Origin: Bradyrhizobium sp. AUGA SZCCT0158
Lineage (GTDB): Bacteria; Pseudomonadota; Alphaproteobacteria; Rhizobiales; Xanthobacteraceae
Direction: 5' to 3'
DNA: 64,000 nt
Assembly: GCF_018130065.1 (NCBI RefSeq)
Contig: NZ_JAFCME010000011.1
Coordinates: 124,001-188,000 of the forward strand
In this document: piece after piece, positions 2,798 through 60,257 of the stretch
Layout: each line of letters opens with the position of its first letter
How positions within the stretch are numbered: the stretch's first letter is position 1
Translations under genes and position numbers: made by a program
Notes under the pieces: generated by a model
What the model saw: the letters and a program-made list of their open reading frames with translations, nothing else
Databases searched by the model: none
Told to the model about the DNA's origin: nothing

Positions 2798-5140
2798 ATG
2801 ACCGATGTGACCGATAACGCCCCTTCCGATTCCCCAACCGACGCGTCTTTCCGCCCGCATTCGTCCCATTGGGGCGTGTTTTCGGCGCGCTGGCAGGGCG
2901 ATGAACTCGAGGTTCGGCCGCATCCGGATGATCCCGATCCGAACCAGATCATCGATAATTTTCCCGGCGCCTTGCGCCACCGCGCGCGCGTCGCGCAGCC
3001 GATGGTGCGCCGCGGCTGGCTCGAAGGCAAGCGCGGGCCGGACGCGCGCCGCGGGCGTGATGAATTTGTCCCGATGTCCTGGGAGGACGCGCTGGATCTG
3101 CTTGGCGCCGAACTCGCCCGCGTGCGGGACAATTATGGTCCGGGTGCGGTGTTCGGCGGCTCCTACGGCTGGTCGAGCGCGGGCCGCTTTCACCATGCGC
3201 AGAGCCAGGTCCATCGCTTCCTGAACATCGCGATGGGCGGCTACGTCAAGTCGGTCAATTCATATAGTTCCGGCGCCGCCACCGTCGTGGTGCCCCACAT
3301 CATTGGCGACTACGAGGATCTGACCAAGCGCAACGTCTCCTGGGAACAGATCGCCGAGCACAGCGATGTCGTGCTCGCCTTTGGCGGCATGGCGCTGAAG
3401 AACAGCATGGTGGCCGGCGGCGGCACCAGCAAGCATGTCGAGCGTGGCGCGATGGCGCGCGCCGCGGCGCGCGGCTGCCAGTTCGTCCATGTCAGCCCGC
3501 TGCGCGGCGATTTGCCTGATGAAGCCCGCTCGCAATGGATCAGCAACATCCCGGGCACCGATGTCGCCCTGATGCTGGCGCTGGTGCATACGCTGGTTGC
3601 CGAGGGACTGCACGATCGGGCCTTCCTCGATCGCTTCACGGTCGGCTGGCCGGTGTTCGAGCGTTACGTTCTGGGCGAGACCGACGGCCAGCCCAAGGAT
3701 GCGGCATGGGCCGCGGCGATATCAGGCGTCGCCGCCGACACCATCGTTGCGCTCGCCCGCAAGCTTCACGGCCGCCGCGCGCTGATCGTGGTCTCGCACT
3801 CGCTGCAACGGGCCGAACATGGCGAGCAGCCGGTCTGGATGGGCGCCGTTCTTGCCGCAGCGCTGGGGCAGATCGGTCTGCCGGGCGGCGGCTATGCCTA
3901 CGCGCTCGGGGCCATCGCCTATTACGGCCGACGCTACAACGCCGTGCCGACGCCGACACTTTCGCAAGCGCGTAACGGCGTCACCGAATTCATTCCGGTC
4001 GCCCGCATCGCCGACATGCTGCTCAATCCCGGCGGCACCTATCGCTACAACGGCAAGACCAAGACCTATCCCGATATCAAGCTGGTCTACTGGGCCGGCG
4101 GTAATCCCTTCCATCACCATCAGGACATCAATCGGCTACGCAAGGCTTTCGCGCAGGTCGACACGTTGGTGGTGCATGAATTGGGCTGGACCGCGACGGC
4201 GCGGCATGCCGATTTCGTGCTGCCCGCGACCATGACGCTGGAGCGCGAGGACATCGGTGCCAACGCCAACGATCCACTTCTGGTGCCGATGCAGCAGATT
4301 GCGCCGCCTTATGGCGAAGCGCGGGACGATTACGCGATCTTCTCCGATCTCGCCGAACGCCTCGGCAAGCGCGAAGCCTTCACCGAAGGCCGCAACGTCC
4401 GCCAATGGCTGGAGCATCTGTATGAACCGACACGGAAGGGGCTCGCGGAGCGTGGCTTGGCTGCGCCGAGCTTCGACGAATTCTGGAAGGGCGACGGCCT
4501 GATCATGCCGCAACACCCTGATGATGGCGGGCAGCTGCGCCGTTTCCGCGAAGATCCGGATGGCGCAAAACTGCCGACGCCGAGCGGCAAGCTGGAAATC
4601 TTCTCGGAGACCATCGCGGGCTTTGGCGAGACGGACTGTCCGGGTCATCCGGCCTGGCTCGAGCGGGTGCAGGTGCCGGCGCCGTCGGCACCGCTGATCC
4701 TGGTCGCCAACCAGCCGGCGACGCGGCTACACAGCCAGCTTGATTTCGGTGGCCACAGCGCAGCGTCGAAGCAACGCGGACGCGAGGTCGCATGCATGAA
4801 TCCGATCGACGCCGCCGCGCGCGGGATTTCCGACGGTGACATCATTCGCCTGTTCAACGAGCGCGGCGCGTGTCTGGCGGGCGTCCGCGTGACCGACGGT
4901 ATAAGGCAGGGCGTGATCCAACTGGCTACCGGCGCCTGGTACGATCCCGCCGATCCCAACGAAGATGCGCCGCTTTGCGTGCACGGCAATCCGAACGTCC
5001 TGACGCGGGACGTCGGCACGTCCTCTCTGGCGCAGGGCTGCACCGGGCAACTGACGACCGCCGAGGTCGAACGTTTCATCGGCAATCTGCCGCCGATCCA
5101 GGCCTACGATCCGCCCGTGACAGCGAAGCGCGGAAGCTAG
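2798..5140 (+). CDS. molybdopterin-dependent oxidoreductase, BisC/TorA/DMSO-reductase type
   Basis: A 780-residue molybdenum bis-MGD enzyme. The segment SYGWSSAGRFHHAQ near residue 123 matches the region that gives the serine ligand to Mo in DMSO reductase, TMAO reductase and biotin sulfoxide reductase. Later features include YWAGGNPFHHHQD (about 431-443), LPATMTLEREDIGAN (about 476) and the C-terminal MGD-binding domain with NQPATRLHSQLD (about 635). There is no N-terminal CxxC Fe-S motif and no Tat signal, so the enzyme is predicted cytoplasmic, as BisC is. It likely reduces an S-oxide or N-oxide. The amidase gene starts 3 bases after its stop, indicating one operon. The exact substrate is uncertain. 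Confidence 0.9.
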   Translation: MTDVTDNAPSDSPTDASFRPHSSHWGVFSARWQGDELEVRPHPDDPDPNQIIDNFPGALRHRARVAQPMVRRGWLEGKRGPDARRGRDEFVPMSWEDALDLLGAELARVRDNYGPGAVFGGSYGWSSAGRFHHAQSQVHRFLNIAMGGYVKSVNSYSSGAATVVVPHIIGDYEDLTKRNVSWEQIAEHSDVVLAFGGMALKNSMVAGGGTSKHVERGAMARAAARGCQFVHVSPLRGDLPDEARSQWISNIPGTDVALMLALVHTLVAEGLHDRAFLDRFTVGWPVFERYVLGETDGQPKDAAWAAAISGVAADTIVALARKLHGRRALIVVSHSLQRAEHGEQPVWMGAVLAAALGQIGLPGGGYAYALGAIAYYGRRYNAVPTPTLSQARNGVTEFIPVARIADMLLNPGGTYRYNGKTKTYPDIKLVYWAGGNPFHHHQDINRLRKAFAQVDTLVVHELGWTATARHADFVLPATMTLEREDIGANANDPLLVPMQQIAPPYGEARDDYAIFSDLAERLGKREAFTEGRNVRQWLEHLYEPTRKGLAERGLAAPSFDEFWKGDGLIMPQHPDDGGQLRRFREDPDGAKLPTPSGKLEIFSETIAGFGETDCPGHPAWLERVQVPAPSAPLILVANQPATRLHSQLDFGGHSAASKQRGREVACMNPIDAAARGISDGDIIRLFNERGACLAGVRVTDGIRQGVIQLATGAWYDPADPNEDAPLCVHGNPNVLTRDVGTSSLAQGCTGQLTTAEVERFIGNLPPIQAYDPPVTAKRGS

Positions 5141-5143
5141 GTC

Positions 5144-6556
5144 ATGGATAAAGTTGATCTCTGTTTCACGCCGGCAACGGATCTGGCGGGTGCGATCCGC
5201 GCCAAAAAACTATCCTCCGTCGAAATCACCTCGACGGTGCTGGAGCGCATCGCAGCCCTTGAACCCAAACTGAACGCGTTCGCGCATCTGGCTGCGGCGG
5301 AGGCGATGGACGCCGCGGCGGCCGCCGACAGCGCGCTCGCCAAGGGAGATTCGCTCGGGCCGCTGCACGGCATTCCCGTCACCATCAAGGACCTCGAACC
5401 GGTGCGCGGCATGCCGTTCGAACGCGGGACCTATTTGTTTCGCGGCGAGGTCGCGCCTGCCGATAACGTCGCGGTCGCGCGCCTCCGCAGTGCGGGCGCC
5501 ATCATCCTCGGCAAGACCACCACGCCCGAATTCGGCTGGAAGGGCGTCAGCCACAGCCCGCTGACCGGCGTCACGAATAATCCGTGGAAGCTCGGCCTGA
5601 ACGCCGGCGCGTCTTCTTCCGGCGCGGGCGTCGGTGCCGCGGCGGGCTATGGTCCACTGCATCAGGGCAGCGACGGCGCGGGCTCGATCCGCATGCCCGC
5701 GCATTTTTGCGGCGTCTACGGAATCAAGCCGACCTACGGTCGCGTGCCGCAATCGCCGATGACGCCGAGCGACAACACCGTGCATCTCGGTCCTTTGACG
5801 CGCACGGTCGCGGACGCCGCGCTGATGCTGAAAGTGATGGCCGGCCGCCATCCCGACGACCAGTCGAGCCTTGAAGGGCCGCCGGCCGACTATCCCGCAC
5901 AGCTCGCGAGCCGGCCGCGCGCGCCGCGTATCGCATTCAGTCCGGATCTCGGCCATGCCCGCGTTGATCCTGACGTGGCTGACCTGGTGCGCAAGGCCGC
6001 GGAGGTGTTCGAAACCGAGCTCGGCTGGCGCGTCGAACAGGTCAAGACGCCGTGGGGACCGAAAGGCCCGGAGCTCGCGCGCTTCTTCTGGCCGGCGCAT
6101 TACAGCCGTTACGCCGATCGCATCGCCGAATCCCTCGACCAGCTGGATCCGGGCTTTGTCGCATGCTTTGAGGCCGGACAGCACATCACGCTGCCGGACT
6201 ATCTGAAAATGAAAGTCGCAAAGCTCGCCTATTGTGCGGAGATCCACCATTTCTTCGAGGATTGGGATTTCCTCCTGACACCGGCGGTATCCGTTGCGGC
6301 ATTCCCCGCCACGCAGCTGCAGCCCGACCACTGGCCTCAACATAAGTGGGACTGGATGTCGTGGGCGGAGTTTTCCTATCCGTTCAACCTGGCGCAGAAT
6401 CCGGCCGCGTCGCTTCCCTGCGGGTTCACCGCATCAGGCCTGCCGGTGGGCTTGCAGATCGTCGGCCGGCGCTGCGACGATCTCGGAGTGCTGCAAATGT
6501 CCGCGGCGTTCGAGGCCGCGCGTCCATGGGCTTCAGCGCGTCCGCCGATCGCTTGA
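5144..6556 (+). CDS. amidase, amidase-signature family
   Basis: A 470-residue amidase-signature enzyme. The Ser-cisSer-Lys triad is visible: Lys in GIPVTIKD (about residue 84), the cis-Ser in the GASSSGAG loop (about 155), and the nucleophile Ser in GSDGAGSIRMPA (about 180). The downstream GIKPTYGRVP motif is also typical. The family hydrolyses amides to a carboxylic acid and ammonia in the cytoplasm. It lies 3 bases behind the molybdenum reductase gene, so the two are probably co-expressed. Substrate is unknown; aryl or aliphatic amides are possible. No signal peptide. Confidence 0.9.
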   Translation: MDKVDLCFTPATDLAGAIRAKKLSSVEITSTVLERIAALEPKLNAFAHLAAAEAMDAAAAADSALAKGDSLGPLHGIPVTIKDLEPVRGMPFERGTYLFRGEVAPADNVAVARLRSAGAIILGKTTTPEFGWKGVSHSPLTGVTNNPWKLGLNAGASSSGAGVGAAAGYGPLHQGSDGAGSIRMPAHFCGVYGIKPTYGRVPQSPMTPSDNTVHLGPLTRTVADAALMLKVMAGRHPDDQSSLEGPPADYPAQLASRPRAPRIAFSPDLGHARVDPDVADLVRKAAEVFETELGWRVEQVKTPWGPKGPELARFFWPAHYSRYADRIAESLDQLDPGFVACFEAGQHITLPDYLKMKVAKLAYCAEIHHFFEDWDFLLTPAVSVAAFPATQLQPDHWPQHKWDWMSWAEFSYPFNLAQNPAASLPCGFTASGLPVGLQIVGRRCDDLGVLQMSAAFEAARPWASARPPIA

Positions 6557-45716: not shown

Positions 45717-46529
45717 CTAGCCGTCATCCAGCTTGTTGAGGTCGCGCACCGATTGCATGATCGGTTCGAAATTCGAGCGCGCATCCAGCGCATCGAACAA
45801 TTGCGCGGTGTCGGATAGCAGGTTGTGCGAACGTTGAATGGCGACCCGTACATCGTCCTGCGGCGTGTCGGACAGGCGGCCGTGGCCGGACAACAGGATC
45901 TTCGAGTTCAACCCCTTCAGCCGCTCCAGCGACTGGATATAGTCGGCGATGCTGCCGGAGCCGAACACGCCGCCCATCACGCCGCCGGGCATCAGCGTGT
46001 CCGAAGCGAACAACAGGCCCTTGTCCTGGTCGAACAGCGTGATGCAGGCCGAGGTATGGCCCGGCGTGTACATCACGTTGAGGCGGAAATTGCCGAGGTC
46101 GAGCAGATTGCCTTCCTCGAGCCAGATGTCGACATTGATCGGGATATTCGGTTCGTTGAACATCTTGCGCAGCATCGAGAAATCGTCGCGCAGCATGATC
46201 TTGTTGGCGGCCAGCCGATGCGCGGCGATGAAGGCGCGGCCATTGAAATGATAGGCGGCGCCGATATGGTCGAGGTGCTCATGGCTGAGCACCACCAAGT
46301 CGATTTTCTCGGGCGGACAATCGACGTGTTGCAGACATTTCAGCAGATGCGGATAGTTCGATGACAGGCCGACATCGATCATGATGGTCCGCGAGCTGCC
46401 GCGCACCAGATAGGCGTTCGCCGCGCGGTTCTTGAAGCGGATCTGGTAGACGTCCTCGGCTGCCTCGATCAGCGTGCAGACGTCGCTTTCAAGCAGGGTC
46501 TTGAATGGGCTCGGCCTGCGCTCGCTCAT
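45717..46529 (-). CDS. MBL-fold metallo-hydrolase
   Basis: A 270-residue metallo-beta-lactamase-fold protein. The metal motif HEHLDH lies near residue 84, further ligands are in TPGHTSACITLF (about 157) and SGHGR (about 216), and an Asp in FASDTLMPGG. The start overlaps the stop of the cyclic-nucleotide-binding gene by 4 bases, so the two are coupled. Function could be hydrolysis of a small ester, thioester or lactone. Confidence 0.9.
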   Translation of the reverse strand: MSERRPSPFKTLLESDVCTLIEAAEDVYQIRFKNRAANAYLVRGSSRTIMIDVGLSSNYPHLLKCLQHVDCPPEKIDLVVLSHEHLDHIGAAYHFNGRAFIAAHRLAANKIMLRDDFSMLRKMFNEPNIPINVDIWLEEGNLLDLGNFRLNVMYTPGHTSACITLFDQDKGLLFASDTLMPGGVMGGVFGSGSIADYIQSLERLKGLNSKILLSGHGRLSDTPQDDVRVAIQRSHNLLSDTAQLFDALDARSNFEPIMQSVRDLNKLDDG

Positions 46530-46900
46530 GGACTGGCCGCGGCTTTGAACGTGATCGCGTTCGAGGCACGCAGCCGCTTGCTGAGCGCATCCATGATCAT
46601 CAGTGCAAACGCCGGCTGCTGGCTGACCAGGTAGACGAAGCGCGCGTGGTTGATCCGCATCACGCGGGTGTGCGCCGCCGCGGCAATCGCGGTCGCCGAG
46701 CGGGACGAGCCGTCGATCACGGCCATCTCGCCGAAGAACTCGCCCTTGCCGAGCGTAACGATGATGGTCTTGCTGGCGCCGTTAAGCTTGGCGATCTCGA
46801 CCTTGCCGTCGAGTACGACGAACAGCTCACGCCCGGTCGAGCCTTCCTCAAAAATGACGTCATCGACATCAAACTCGTTGATGCATTTTTCGATGGTCAT
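46526..46900 (-). CDS. cyclic nucleotide-binding domain protein
   Basis: A 124-residue stand-alone CNB domain without DNA-binding or channel domains. The phosphate-binding cassette FGEMAVIDGSSRSATAIA (about 66-83) has the conserved Gly-Glu and Arg that hold the cyclic phosphate. A strong AGGAGG site 5 bases before ATG 46900 decides the start; the frame goes on to 46963. It overlaps the MBL gene. Together they may form a cAMP- or cGMP-responsive hydrolase. Confidence 0.88.
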   Translation of the reverse strand: MTIEKCINEFDVDDVIFEEGSTGRELFVVLDGKVEIAKLNGASKTIIVTLGKGEFFGEMAVIDGSSRSATAIAAAAHTRVMRINHARFVYLVSQQPAFALMIMDALSKRLRASNAITFKAAASP

Positions 46901-47149
46901 GGCGGCCTCCTGCCTTCTGGCTGGATGGTCGGGCCATGTTAATCGGTAAATGAACGGGCGCAAACGGAGCTGTCGAAATTGCCGCAGGGCAACAAAGGGC
47001 GAGGGGCGGAATTGCCGGCCGCGTCGCCGTCAACTTGCGGCCGCAAACAGGCCCGGTTGCCCTCTTAAATTTCGGTAAGGCGGAACCCGGTAACGATTTC
47101 GCAAGCAATAAAAGTTACCAAAAGGTCAACCCATTCTGGAGAATTGAAC
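46901..47149. other. divergent intergenic region
   Basis: About 250 bases between the divergent CNB and membrane-protein genes; it should hold both promoters. I see no repeat, operator or small gene. Confidence 0.4.
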
Positions 47150-57254: not shown

Positions 57255-57512
57255 TCAGTAGCAGACGTTGACGGTGCGGAACACAACGCCATACGGGGTG
57301 GACACGCGGCGGCTCACGTAGCAGCCGTGGTAACCGCCACCGATGTAGCCGACGTTGAAGCCGAAGCCGTGGTGGTGATGATGATGGCCATGGTGGTGGT
57401 GATGCGGGAAGGCGGGCCAGTGCACCGGCTTCGCCGACGCGGCGGTCGGAGCCATTGCGATGGTGCCGAGGGTGGCGGCGGCAGCGATAGCGAGAGTAAC
57501 TTTACGAAGCAT
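57255..57512 (-). CDS. small exported His-rich protein, paralogue 1
   Basis: An 85-residue protein. A Sec signal (about 1-26) is followed by a His-rich stretch with runs of four to six His (residues about 36-50) and a conserved C-terminal part with YIGGGYHGCYVSRRVSTPYGVVFRTVNVCY, which holds two Cys. It is a paralogue of the protein at 57949; the last 30 residues are almost identical. A GGAGAAAG site lies before the ATG. His-rich exported proteins often bind Zn, Ni or Cu, but no function is proven. Confidence 0.85.
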   Translation of the reverse strand: MLRKVTLAIAAAATLGTIAMAPTAASAKPVHWPAFPHHHHHGHHHHHHGFGFNVGYIGGGYHGCYVSRRVSTPYGVVFRTVNVCY

Positions 57513-57569
57513 GGTCTTTCTCCGGAAGTGAAGCGCGATCGACATCTTGTCTTGGCGCGGGTTGATCAT

Positions 57570-57926: not shown

Positions 57927-57948
57927 CTGAACCGAATGAGTGCTTCGA

Positions 57949-58188
57949 TCAGTAGCAGACGTTGACGGTGCGGAGGACAACGCCGTAGGGGGTGAACACC
58001 CGGCGGGTCACGTAGCAGCCGTCATAACCGCCACCGATGAAGCCGATGCGGAAGCCATGGCCCCAGTGACCGTGGTGGTGATGGCCGTGGTGATGGTGGT
58101 GGTGATGCCACGCCGAAGCGGTGGTGGGAGCCAGCGCCATAACGCCGAGGGAAGTGGCGGCGGCGAGAGCGAGAGCAACTTTACGCAT
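57949..58188 (-). CDS. small exported His-rich protein, paralogue 2
   Basis: A 79-residue paralogue of the protein at 57255. Sec signal (about 1-26), a His block with seven His in a row (about 28-34) then GHHHHGHWGHG, and a C-terminal YDGCYVTRRVFTPYGVVLRTVNVCY with two Cys. The pair probably arose by tandem duplication, including the terminator. Possible roles are metal buffering or envelope stress, unproven. Confidence 0.85.
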   Translation of the reverse strand: MRKVALALAAATSLGVMALAPTTASAWHHHHHHHGHHHHGHWGHGFRIGFIGGGYDGCYVTRRVFTPYGVVLRTVNVCY

Positions 58189-58397
58189 GGTCTTTCTCCT
58201 TCAATGATGCGCGTCGACATCTTGTCCTGGCGCGGGTTGATCGTTTCAGTTTCAGTCTGGGTTTCAGTTTCAGTCTGACCCATCGCCCATCAGTCGTACG
58301 CGCCAAAAAGCGGGTTCGAGAAAACGGCGTCTCGATCGGGCAGAATTTTCTGAATGCTTGTTCAGGGAAAGTGAGGATCGCGAATGGAATCGTAGAT

Positions 58398-58511: not shown

Positions 58512-60257
58512 TCACGCCGCGGCAGGCGTCACGTCGTCGATCAGCGCCGACAATTCCTTCGCATCCGACACGCTGCGTACGATCATCGGCTCGTTGCGGC
58601 CGCGGATCTCGACTTCATGTTGCGGCAGCGCGTCGGCGGATAGGCCTGCGGCGGCGCGAACCTCGTCCGAGATCACCACCTCGCAGGAAAGGCTCTTGGT
58701 CATGTCCTGCAGGCGTGCGGCGACATTGACGGGATCGCCGAGCGCGGTGAACACCATATGGTCGCGGTAGCCGATGTCGCCGACGATCACCTCGCCGCCA
58801 TTGATGCCGATACCGAAGCGGATCGGTTCGCGCAGATCATGTTCCAGAAACTTGTTCACCTCGTCGACATTGGCGGCGATCATGGCGGCGGCCCGCAGCG
58901 CTTGCCGGCAGGCCTCCTGTCGGCTCACAGCAAGCCCGAACAGCGCCAGCATGCCGTCGCCGACGAACTGGTTCGGCCGGCCGCCGCTTTCGATCACCGC
59001 CTGCGATACCGCGCCGAGGAACCGATTGACGATGAAGACGGTGTCGAAGGGTAGGCGTTTTTCCGCAAGCTTGGTCGAGCCGCGCATGTCCACGAACATG
59101 CTGACGAGATAACGCTCCTGGCCGATCCGCGTCGGACTGGACGACGGTGCGTCGGCCGACATGGTGTGCGGCAGGAAGAGCTGGAAAAAGGAGAGGTCGC
59201 TCGCCGGCCGCAACTGACAGGCGAGGCGGATCGACGGATCCGACGTGCCGACGCGGCCGAGCACGAAGGCTTCGCGCTGCGAGGGCGCGGGCAGGTCGTG
59301 GTGGTCGCCGATGATGCGGATACGGCAGGTGGAGCAGCGCGCACGGCCGCCGCACACGCTGGCATGGGGCACGTTGTGGCGCAGGCTGGCCTCGAGCACG
59401 CTGAGGCCCTTCGGCACCCGGATCGTTCGGCCGTTGCCATAGGACAGGTTGATCATGCCGCCGCGGCGCTCATGAATGGCGCGGGCGCCCTTTGCCAGCA
59501 GTGTAAATCCGAGCAGGCCCCAGTAGCCGAGCAGAAGATAATCCGTGATCTGGTTCAGCACGGCCTTTTCGGCCGATGTCCCCGTCTGGGATGGTTTGAG
59601 ATTCTCGGCCCGCCATTCGGCGCTGTCGCTGTCGACGACGATGCGTCCGCCCTGATATAGGCCGAGCATGGCAAGCGTCGGAATCAGCACCGCGGCGGCC
59701 AGCAGATAGGGCGCGGCGGTCTTGTAGAACGCCTTCATGCGCAGCCACAAATACAGACCGATGCAGCCGTGCGTCCACGAGATCACCAGGACGGCGAACA
59801 GCATCCACATCTTGAGCGGCGGCCATGAGATCCAGTACGCAAAGAACACTTGCGGGTAGAGTATCTCGTGCCCGTACAGCGAATAGCCGAGCCGCACGCC
59901 GATCACGTGCGTGATGATCATCGCGGGAATGCTGAGGCCCAGCACCAGTTGCAGCGGCTCGATCGCCTTCCAGCGGAATTGCCGGCGCTCGTACAGCGCC
60001 CAGATGCCGAGCCCGGTGTGAATGAGGCAGGCCGCATAGAACACCAGCGTGACCGGCAGCGAATGCCAGAACAGCGTGTGCCAATAGACTCCGCTAGCCA
60101 GGGCCTCCATCGAGATATTGCCGAGCGCATGGTTGACGAAATGGCTGATCAGATAGGCGAACAGCACCACGCCGGTGGCCAGGCGGACCTGTCGCAGGCT
60201 GACGCCGCGCAGGGTGGCTGTGATTTGCTTAGGGGACAGGGAGGCCATGCGGTCCAT
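58512..60257 (-). CDS. membrane-bound adenylate/guanylate cyclase with haem-like membrane domain and [2Fe-2S] ferredoxin domain
   Basis: A 581-residue fusion. About six transmembrane segments (about 28-205) carry many His (39, 43, 60, 65, 80, 117, 130, 163), similar to the b-haem subunits of succinate dehydrogenase. A ferredoxin domain (about 268-352) has an adrenodoxin-like Cys pattern at 302, 308, 311 and 347. The class III cyclase domain (about 380-560) is complete: FVDMRGST with metal Asp390, VGDGML with Asp434, the base-site Asp508 (ALGDPVN), and Asn511/Arg515. It likely makes cAMP (or cGMP) on the cytoplasmic side in response to redox state or electron flow. Confidence 0.93.
   Translation of the reverse strand: MDRMASLSPKQITATLRGVSLRQVRLATGVVLFAYLISHFVNHALGNISMEALASGVYWHTLFWHSLPVTLVFYAACLIHTGLGIWALYERRQFRWKAIEPLQLVLGLSIPAMIITHVIGVRLGYSLYGHEILYPQVFFAYWISWPPLKMWMLFAVLVISWTHGCIGLYLWLRMKAFYKTAAPYLLAAAVLIPTLAMLGLYQGGRIVVDSDSAEWRAENLKPSQTGTSAEKAVLNQITDYLLLGYWGLLGFTLLAKGARAIHERRGGMINLSYGNGRTIRVPKGLSVLEASLRHNVPHASVCGGRARCSTCRIRIIGDHHDLPAPSQREAFVLGRVGTSDPSIRLACQLRPASDLSFFQLFLPHTMSADAPSSSPTRIGQERYLVSMFVDMRGSTKLAEKRLPFDTVFIVNRFLGAVSQAVIESGGRPNQFVGDGMLALFGLAVSRQEACRQALRAAAMIAANVDEVNKFLEHDLREPIRFGIGINGGEVIVGDIGYRDHMVFTALGDPVNVAARLQDMTKSLSCEVVISDEVRAAAGLSADALPQHEVEIRGRNEPMIVRSVSDAKELSALIDDVTPAAA

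Follow-up and report, generated by a model that had tools for sequence, protein, structure and literature searches.

A widely conserved CyaC-like gene of Bradyrhizobium: a predicted quinone-responsive membrane cyclase with an altered base-selecting residue

CyaC of Sinorhizobium meliloti and its counterpart in Bradyrhizobium

The closest described system is the membrane cyclase CyaC of Sinorhizobium meliloti (SMc01818). As stated in a passage of PMC10463352 that cites Wissig 2019, the six-helix domain of this protein binds two haem B; the same passage reports that ubiquinone oxidises or reduces these haems, thereby affecting cyclase activity, and a figure legend of that paper (citing Wissig et al. 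2019) mentions a [2Fe-2S] cluster and activation once quinones have oxidised the protein. CyaC is also described there in complex with the TetR regulator CycR, encoded beside cyaC, and with the CRP-like Clr, and a LysR gene adjoins cyaC (PMC10463352). The first-pass annotation of the locus presented here, made from sequence alone, knew of no proven mechanism for proteins of this layout, which has to be corrected, as one was already in print for S. meliloti CyaC (PMC10463352, in the part citing Wissig 2019). The redox mechanism is thus previously described for a relative, and the protein studied here is a further, widely conserved member of the CyaC kind, in which the base-selecting residue is altered and the gene neighbours differ.

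The gene lies on the minus strand of the 64,000-nucleotide stretch of Bradyrhizobium DNA that we analysed (the window), where its ORF starts with an ATG at 60257 and runs down to 58512 (58512..60257), encoding a protein of 581 aa in which a six-helix tetra-His anchor is followed by a [2Fe-2S] ferredoxin domain and then by a class III cyclase. Pfam returned Fer2 at residues 274–351 (E 3.7e-07) and Guanylate_cyc at residues 387–556 (E 6.1e-12), both above the cut-offs; the first 265 residues matched no family. The three-part protein proposed at the outset, with its His-rich membrane, ferredoxin, and cyclase domains, is borne out by these matches, by the helices of the AlphaFold2 model, and by invariant residues; C302, C308, C311, C347, D390, D434, N511, and R515 were all found at the positions initially given. 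For the window gene, our comparisons establish the domain order, an invariant ligand set, a fold match, conservation, and synteny. A chance ORF is ruled out by a rough dN/dS of 0.20–0.37 against four relatives together with matches at E <= 1e-100 in 59/60 genomes of the genus, its own included. Near the gene, sigma-70-like promoters were absent (0 observed vs. 0.6 expected), and terminator-like sites numbered 4 (1.9 expected). The full-length AlphaFold2 model reached a pLDDT of 85.3 with a pTM of only 0.59, so that the placement of the domains in it is unsure. The viral contigs scanned with the protein yielded no relative.

As far as S. meliloti CyaC is described in PMC10463352, the window protein resembles it in uniting a six-helix haem-type anchor, a [2Fe-2S] domain, and a class III cyclase within a single chain, and differs from it by having Gln430 instead of Lys and by a gene without an adjoining LysR or TetR (CycR) gene. 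As a stand-in for S. meliloti CyaC, we used the protein of Ensifer sp. LCM 4579 (L062), which has the same domain order and is 34% identical to the window protein over 551 columns. Its gene is flanked by a LysR gene on one side (Pfam) and, on the other, by a TetR-like ORF named by its likeness to the Pfam-confirmed TetR of another locus, L064. In the genome of the window, a CycR-like TetR query gave no match at E <= 1e-10, in a search run without a positive control; a hand-made TetR/LysR regular expression, probably too strict, gave zero matches in the flanks of 30 loci, and NCBIfam NF010072 gave zero matches in the own genome, the controls being likewise silent. In L062 and L064, the TetR and cyaC-like genes stand beside apparent reductive pyrimidine-degradation genes (identified by eye), a neighbourhood that hints at a tie of this branch to pyrimidine use.

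The membrane anchor and the ferredoxin domain

Conservation was read from an alignment of 113 rows (the window and 112 loci), comprising 111 distinct sequences, many of them close kin, with two pairs of identical rows (L014/L096 and L022/L091). Of the 575 relatives that the genome-contig scan confirmed against a Rhizobiaceae protein, the best 80 were kept; a quick tree was built from 108 of the 113 rows (L054, L117, L103, L108, and L096 excluded). Two alignments were prepared for structure work, A3 with the window protein and 65 of the best 80 loci and A5 with the window and 54 of them. Four genomes seemed to hold anchor-less relatives, with a match covering residues 226–580 only, and were rejected as such: inspected by eye, their ORFs do encode an anchor, with extra residues inserted ahead of helix VI.

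As the cyclase domain fills the fold search of the full-length model, the anchor was folded separately. Residues 1–265 gave an AlphaFold2 model (55 sequences) with a pLDDT of 91.8 and a pTM of 0.85, in which six long helices span residues 21–47, 67–90, 99–128, 147–172, 178–209, and 228–264; the membrane domain thus delimited (residues 21–264, 59466..60197, minus strand) has a fold like that of the membrane subunits of quinol:fumarate reductase (QFR) and succinate dehydrogenase (SDH). When the model was compared with 365 Foldseek-ranked chains, the top six rows were QFR/SDH C subunits from three distinct proteins, with Z-scores of 11.3–14.1, to be read with the reservation that, for helical bundles, Z below about 13 can mean merely a shared arrangement. 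They are the C subunit of Wolinella succinogenes quinol:fumarate reductase, present as four entries (1qlb_C, Z 14.1, rmsd 5.2, 213 aligned positions), that of D. gigas (5xmj_C, Z 13.3, rmsd 3.0, 179 aligned), and that of Chloroflexus SDH (9lay_C, Z 11.3, rmsd 3.5, 190 aligned); after these, the score falls to Z 6.2 for cytochrome b561. Foldseek itself ranked the four W. succinogenes entries first (probability 0.92–0.99, with weak E-values of 0.17 to 0.57) and the D. gigas protein 42nd (E 4.2, probability 0.44). Sequence profiles, for their part, hardly detect this link: a PDB profile search with the anchor found two matches, a designed protein (E 0.1) and 6lum_C, an SDH subunit C (E 0.11) in which His occupies the columns of the window His39 and His80; Pfam Sdh_cyt was matched by 3 of 55 anchor members (best E 0.034), and the window anchor matched no family at E <= 1. 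The anchor is therefore like the QFR/SDH C subunits of W. succinogenes, D. gigas, and Chloroflexus in its membrane fold and its four His spread across four helices, and unlike them in its sixth helix leading into a ferredoxin domain, in its fusion to a cyclase, and in lacking a Sdh_cyt match.

Structure prediction of residues 25–210 had been suggested at the outset as a check for His paired across helices; our model of residues 1–265 did place one invariant His on each of helices I to IV: His39 (helix I, 60141..60143), His80 (helix II, 60018..60020), His117 (helix III, 59907..59909), and His163 (helix IV, 59769..59771), all on the minus strand. The last three are present in 113/113 rows and His39 in 112/113, the sole exception being L054, which begins at a contig end. 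A fifth candidate, His43, is Leu in three of the 113 rows and is therefore no universal ligand. Judging from helix position, His39 and His117 would sit in the outer half of the membrane, and His80 and His163 in the inner half, since the positively charged loops 91–98 and 173–177 and the soluble domains are set in the cytoplasm. Helix position likewise suggests that His39 and His117 are the ligands of a distal haem and His80 and His163 those of a proximal one, an arrangement that matches the distal/proximal pairing of Wolinella FrdC, the QFR anchor whose haem content and ligand numbers serve as the reference for the four His.

Could the anchor be a degenerate SDH-like remnant kept as a mere membrane tether for a redox-insensitive cyclase? 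The literature matches listed for Bradyrhizobium adenylate cyclase and redox did not include a paper on the window protein, which leaves some room for this reading; the four His and four Cys, however, are invariant in the 113 rows (one of which is missing its initial portion), although identity over the remainder of the anchor has fallen to about 28–44% beyond the window's own clade, and we regard a simple tether as very improbable.

The Fer2 [2Fe-2S] domain (residues 274–351, 59205..59438, minus strand) carries the motif C-x5-C-x2-C-x35-C (Cys 302, 308, 311, and 347) and resembles adrenodoxin and ISC ferredoxins; among ferredoxins of known structure, the one nearest in sequence is an adrenodoxin homolog, and each of the four Cys is found in 113/113 rows. 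An adrenodoxin/ISC-type ferredoxin with its four Cys could alone take electrons from a reductase, so that one may imagine a protein in which the haem anchor does feed the ferredoxin but a soluble donor or O2, instead of quinone, acts as the principal input, the cyclase reading the state of the [2Fe-2S] cluster. We hold this to be unlikely, as the top structural matches of the anchor are quinone-reactive subunits and as quinone exchange is reported for the CyaC haem (PMC10463352, in the passage on CyaC).

We thus favour, with good confidence, a redox-controlled membrane cyclase of the CyaC kind, in which the state of the quinone pool would pass through the haems and the [2Fe-2S] cluster to the cyclase output. 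The six-helix anchor would hold two b haems, with His39/His117 as distal and His80/His163 as proximal ligands, and these haems would exchange electrons with the ubiquinone pool; the cytoplasmic ferredoxin domain would relay the redox state and thereby govern the class III cyclase dimer at the C-terminus, whose output is presumably higher with an oxidised quinone pool, the behaviour reported for CyaC of S. meliloti. Haem and cluster occupancy, the contact with quinone, and the sign of the response are carried over here from the characterised relative and should be taken as predictions. The initial proposal that electrons from the quinone pool could set cAMP output gains support from the conserved His and Cys, the QFR/SDH fold match, and S. 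meliloti CyaC; its cAMP part is less certain on account of Gln430.

The cyclase domain and its substrate

The class III nucleotide cyclase domain (residues 387–556, 58590..59099, minus strand) has D390, D434, N511, and R515. Its fold is close to that of Spirulina CyaC (1wc1_A, Z 25.4, 187 aligned, rmsd 1.7) and of Cya2 (2w01, Z 23.5), with which it shares the metal-binding Asp and the Asn/Arg; these two proteins have other regulatory domains, and Lys or Glu where the window protein has Gln. This residue, Gln430 (58968..58970, minus strand), aligns with the adenine-selecting Lys of class III adenylate cyclases: in phmmer alignments its counterpart is the Lys of Spirulina CyaC (u18145) and the Glu of the guanylyl cyclase Cya2 (u36968, 2w01). 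A cyclase first described as catalytically complete is therefore so for its metal and transition-state residues but not for the residue that selects adenine, and “adenylate” is less certain than was first stated because this Lys is Gln in the clade.

Of the 113 rows, 86 have Lys at position 430, 26 have Gln, and one has Asn, proportions that are no census, as they are drawn from relatives including the best 80 of 575. On the quick tree (108 rows), the non-Lys state needs 3 changes. The window protein falls within a starred non-Lys clade of 18 rows made of its genus, Methylobacteriaceae, and Burkholderia; a second group of 7 rows (Rokubacteria, Nitrospinae, and one betaproteobacterial bin) has a support of 93 and is not starred, and the third consists of L031 (Asn) and L092 (Gln), flagged by the tree program as long branches.

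This substitution could betray a CyaC-type sensor with a changed or relaxed choice of substrate, making cAMP and cGMP, or using another nucleotide. Indeed, adenylate cyclases conserve K at this position and guanylate cyclases have E (PMC4215837). The clade has Gln instead, and seven other cyclases of the same genome (out of 20 further cyclase-domain matches) all keep K there. On the other hand, the second base-contact position, Thr504, which aligns with the Thr of Spirulina CyaC, is retained in 110/113 rows, and the mycobacterial Rv0386, with Gln at the position of Gln430, is an adenylate cyclase with cAMP as its main product. A shift in substrate is thus a possibility to keep in mind, though on the unlikely side; from the sequence, the product is most likely cAMP, with Gln430 leaving room for relaxed specificity.

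Other variants of the catalytic site were noticed among the relatives. In six loci (L065, L067, L075, L076, L081, and L090; five Rokubacteria and one betaproteobacterial bin), the transition-state Asn (Asn511 in the window) is His, along with Gln at 430, and their cyclase may work differently. A relative with the same six-helix, Fer2, and cyclase layout (L158, 2705–4492, plus strand) has Ala at the adenine-selecting position (GGTPNAFVGDE, by eye).

A protein encoded at 46526–46963 (minus strand) had been put forward as a reader of the cyclic nucleotide. It does have a cNMP-binding domain (Pfam), but nothing seen links it to the cyclase: about 11.5 kb separate the two genes, the genome has 24 above-cut-off matches to this domain, this protein included, and the proposed reader's gene shares 4 bases with a metallo-beta-lactamase gene.

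Conservation in the genus and cyclase-free relatives

Among the matching genomes of the genus, four carry an additional copy, full or partial, at another place, and one, G734, has the gene divided between two ORFs; on the 108-row tree, the same-genus sequences mingle with named Bradyrhizobium. The window gene is divergent from a PMT_2 glycosyltransferase gene, beyond which lie a DUF697 (YcjF-like) gene and a YcjX-like gene; on the opposite side, two ORFs without a Pfam match are followed by Lrp/AsnC and putA-type genes. The PMT_2, DUF697, and YcjX-like set is kept in 6/6 compared Bradyrhizobium loci (L095, L099, L100, L110, L112, and L113) and Lrp and putA in 5/6, L095 ending just past the gene. 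Downstream of the cyclase gene, the window also encodes a small protein that is rich in His and probably has a signal peptide (57255–57569, minus strand; by eye), 60% alike in L009, with an apparent decayed second copy beside it at about 57940–58283.

The anchor and ferredoxin domains also occur without a cyclase. An anchor profile run over 289 genomes of the class identified two genomes, G258 and G351, with a tetra-His anchor and Fer2 only. A profile built from these two found no further intact case in 385 genomes of the class and a third one, G659, in the family of G258 (2/39 genomes); the sensor of G659 begins at a contig end and so lacks its first His. Wider scans re-found the known cases only (1/80 in the family of G351, 1/398 in a phylum sample, and 2/43 in the order of G258), from which we conclude that the cyclase-free sensor is rare and present in two families. 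Several other candidates were discarded: a contig end truncates G413, the cyclases of G276 and G543 lie in another frame, G482 stops just inside the start of the cyclase domain near a contig end, and G427, whose ORF begins at a contig end, does include a cyclase.

In G258, G351, and G659, the sensor gene is directly followed by one for a large MscS-type protein; two of these proteins have MS_channel domains by Pfam, and the third is 43% identical to one of them over 594 aligned positions. The two ORFs overlap by 4 bases in G351 and are separated by 8 bases in G258 and about 160 in G659. The sensor and channel genes lie, respectively, at 4420–5577 and 5589–7505 of L156 (plus strand) and at 3974–5113 and 1770–3974 of L155 (minus strand), both with a complete tetra-His set, and at 2–973 and 1135–2937 of L190 (plus strand), where the sensor is cut by the contig end. 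These pairs, from three alphaproteobacterial genomes, are a possible quinone-gated channel system; the literature matches listed included nothing on cyclase-free sensors beside MscS genes, which is no proof of absence.

One may speculate further that the six-helix di-haem and [2Fe-2S] unit is a portable quinone-reading sensor with varied outputs, driving the Lys-to-Gln cyclase in the window's genus, Methylobacteriaceae, Burkholderia, and Rokubacteria and controlling a neighbouring MscS-type channel in the three alphaproteobacterial genomes. We put this forward tentatively, as a rather unlikely reading at present; the cyclase-free copies beside MscS-type genes do suggest that the sensor is a reusable module, and, if the reading is true, membrane permeability would answer to the state of the respiratory chain. 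The Lys-to-Gln change, for its part, makes it possible to test cleanly whether a different messenger is now produced under the same sensor. Direct quinone-to-cyclic-nucleotide signalling, for which a single bacterium has so far been the reported case, probably belongs to the core functions of the genus Bradyrhizobium as a whole, and it probably extends over the Alphaproteobacteria and beyond.
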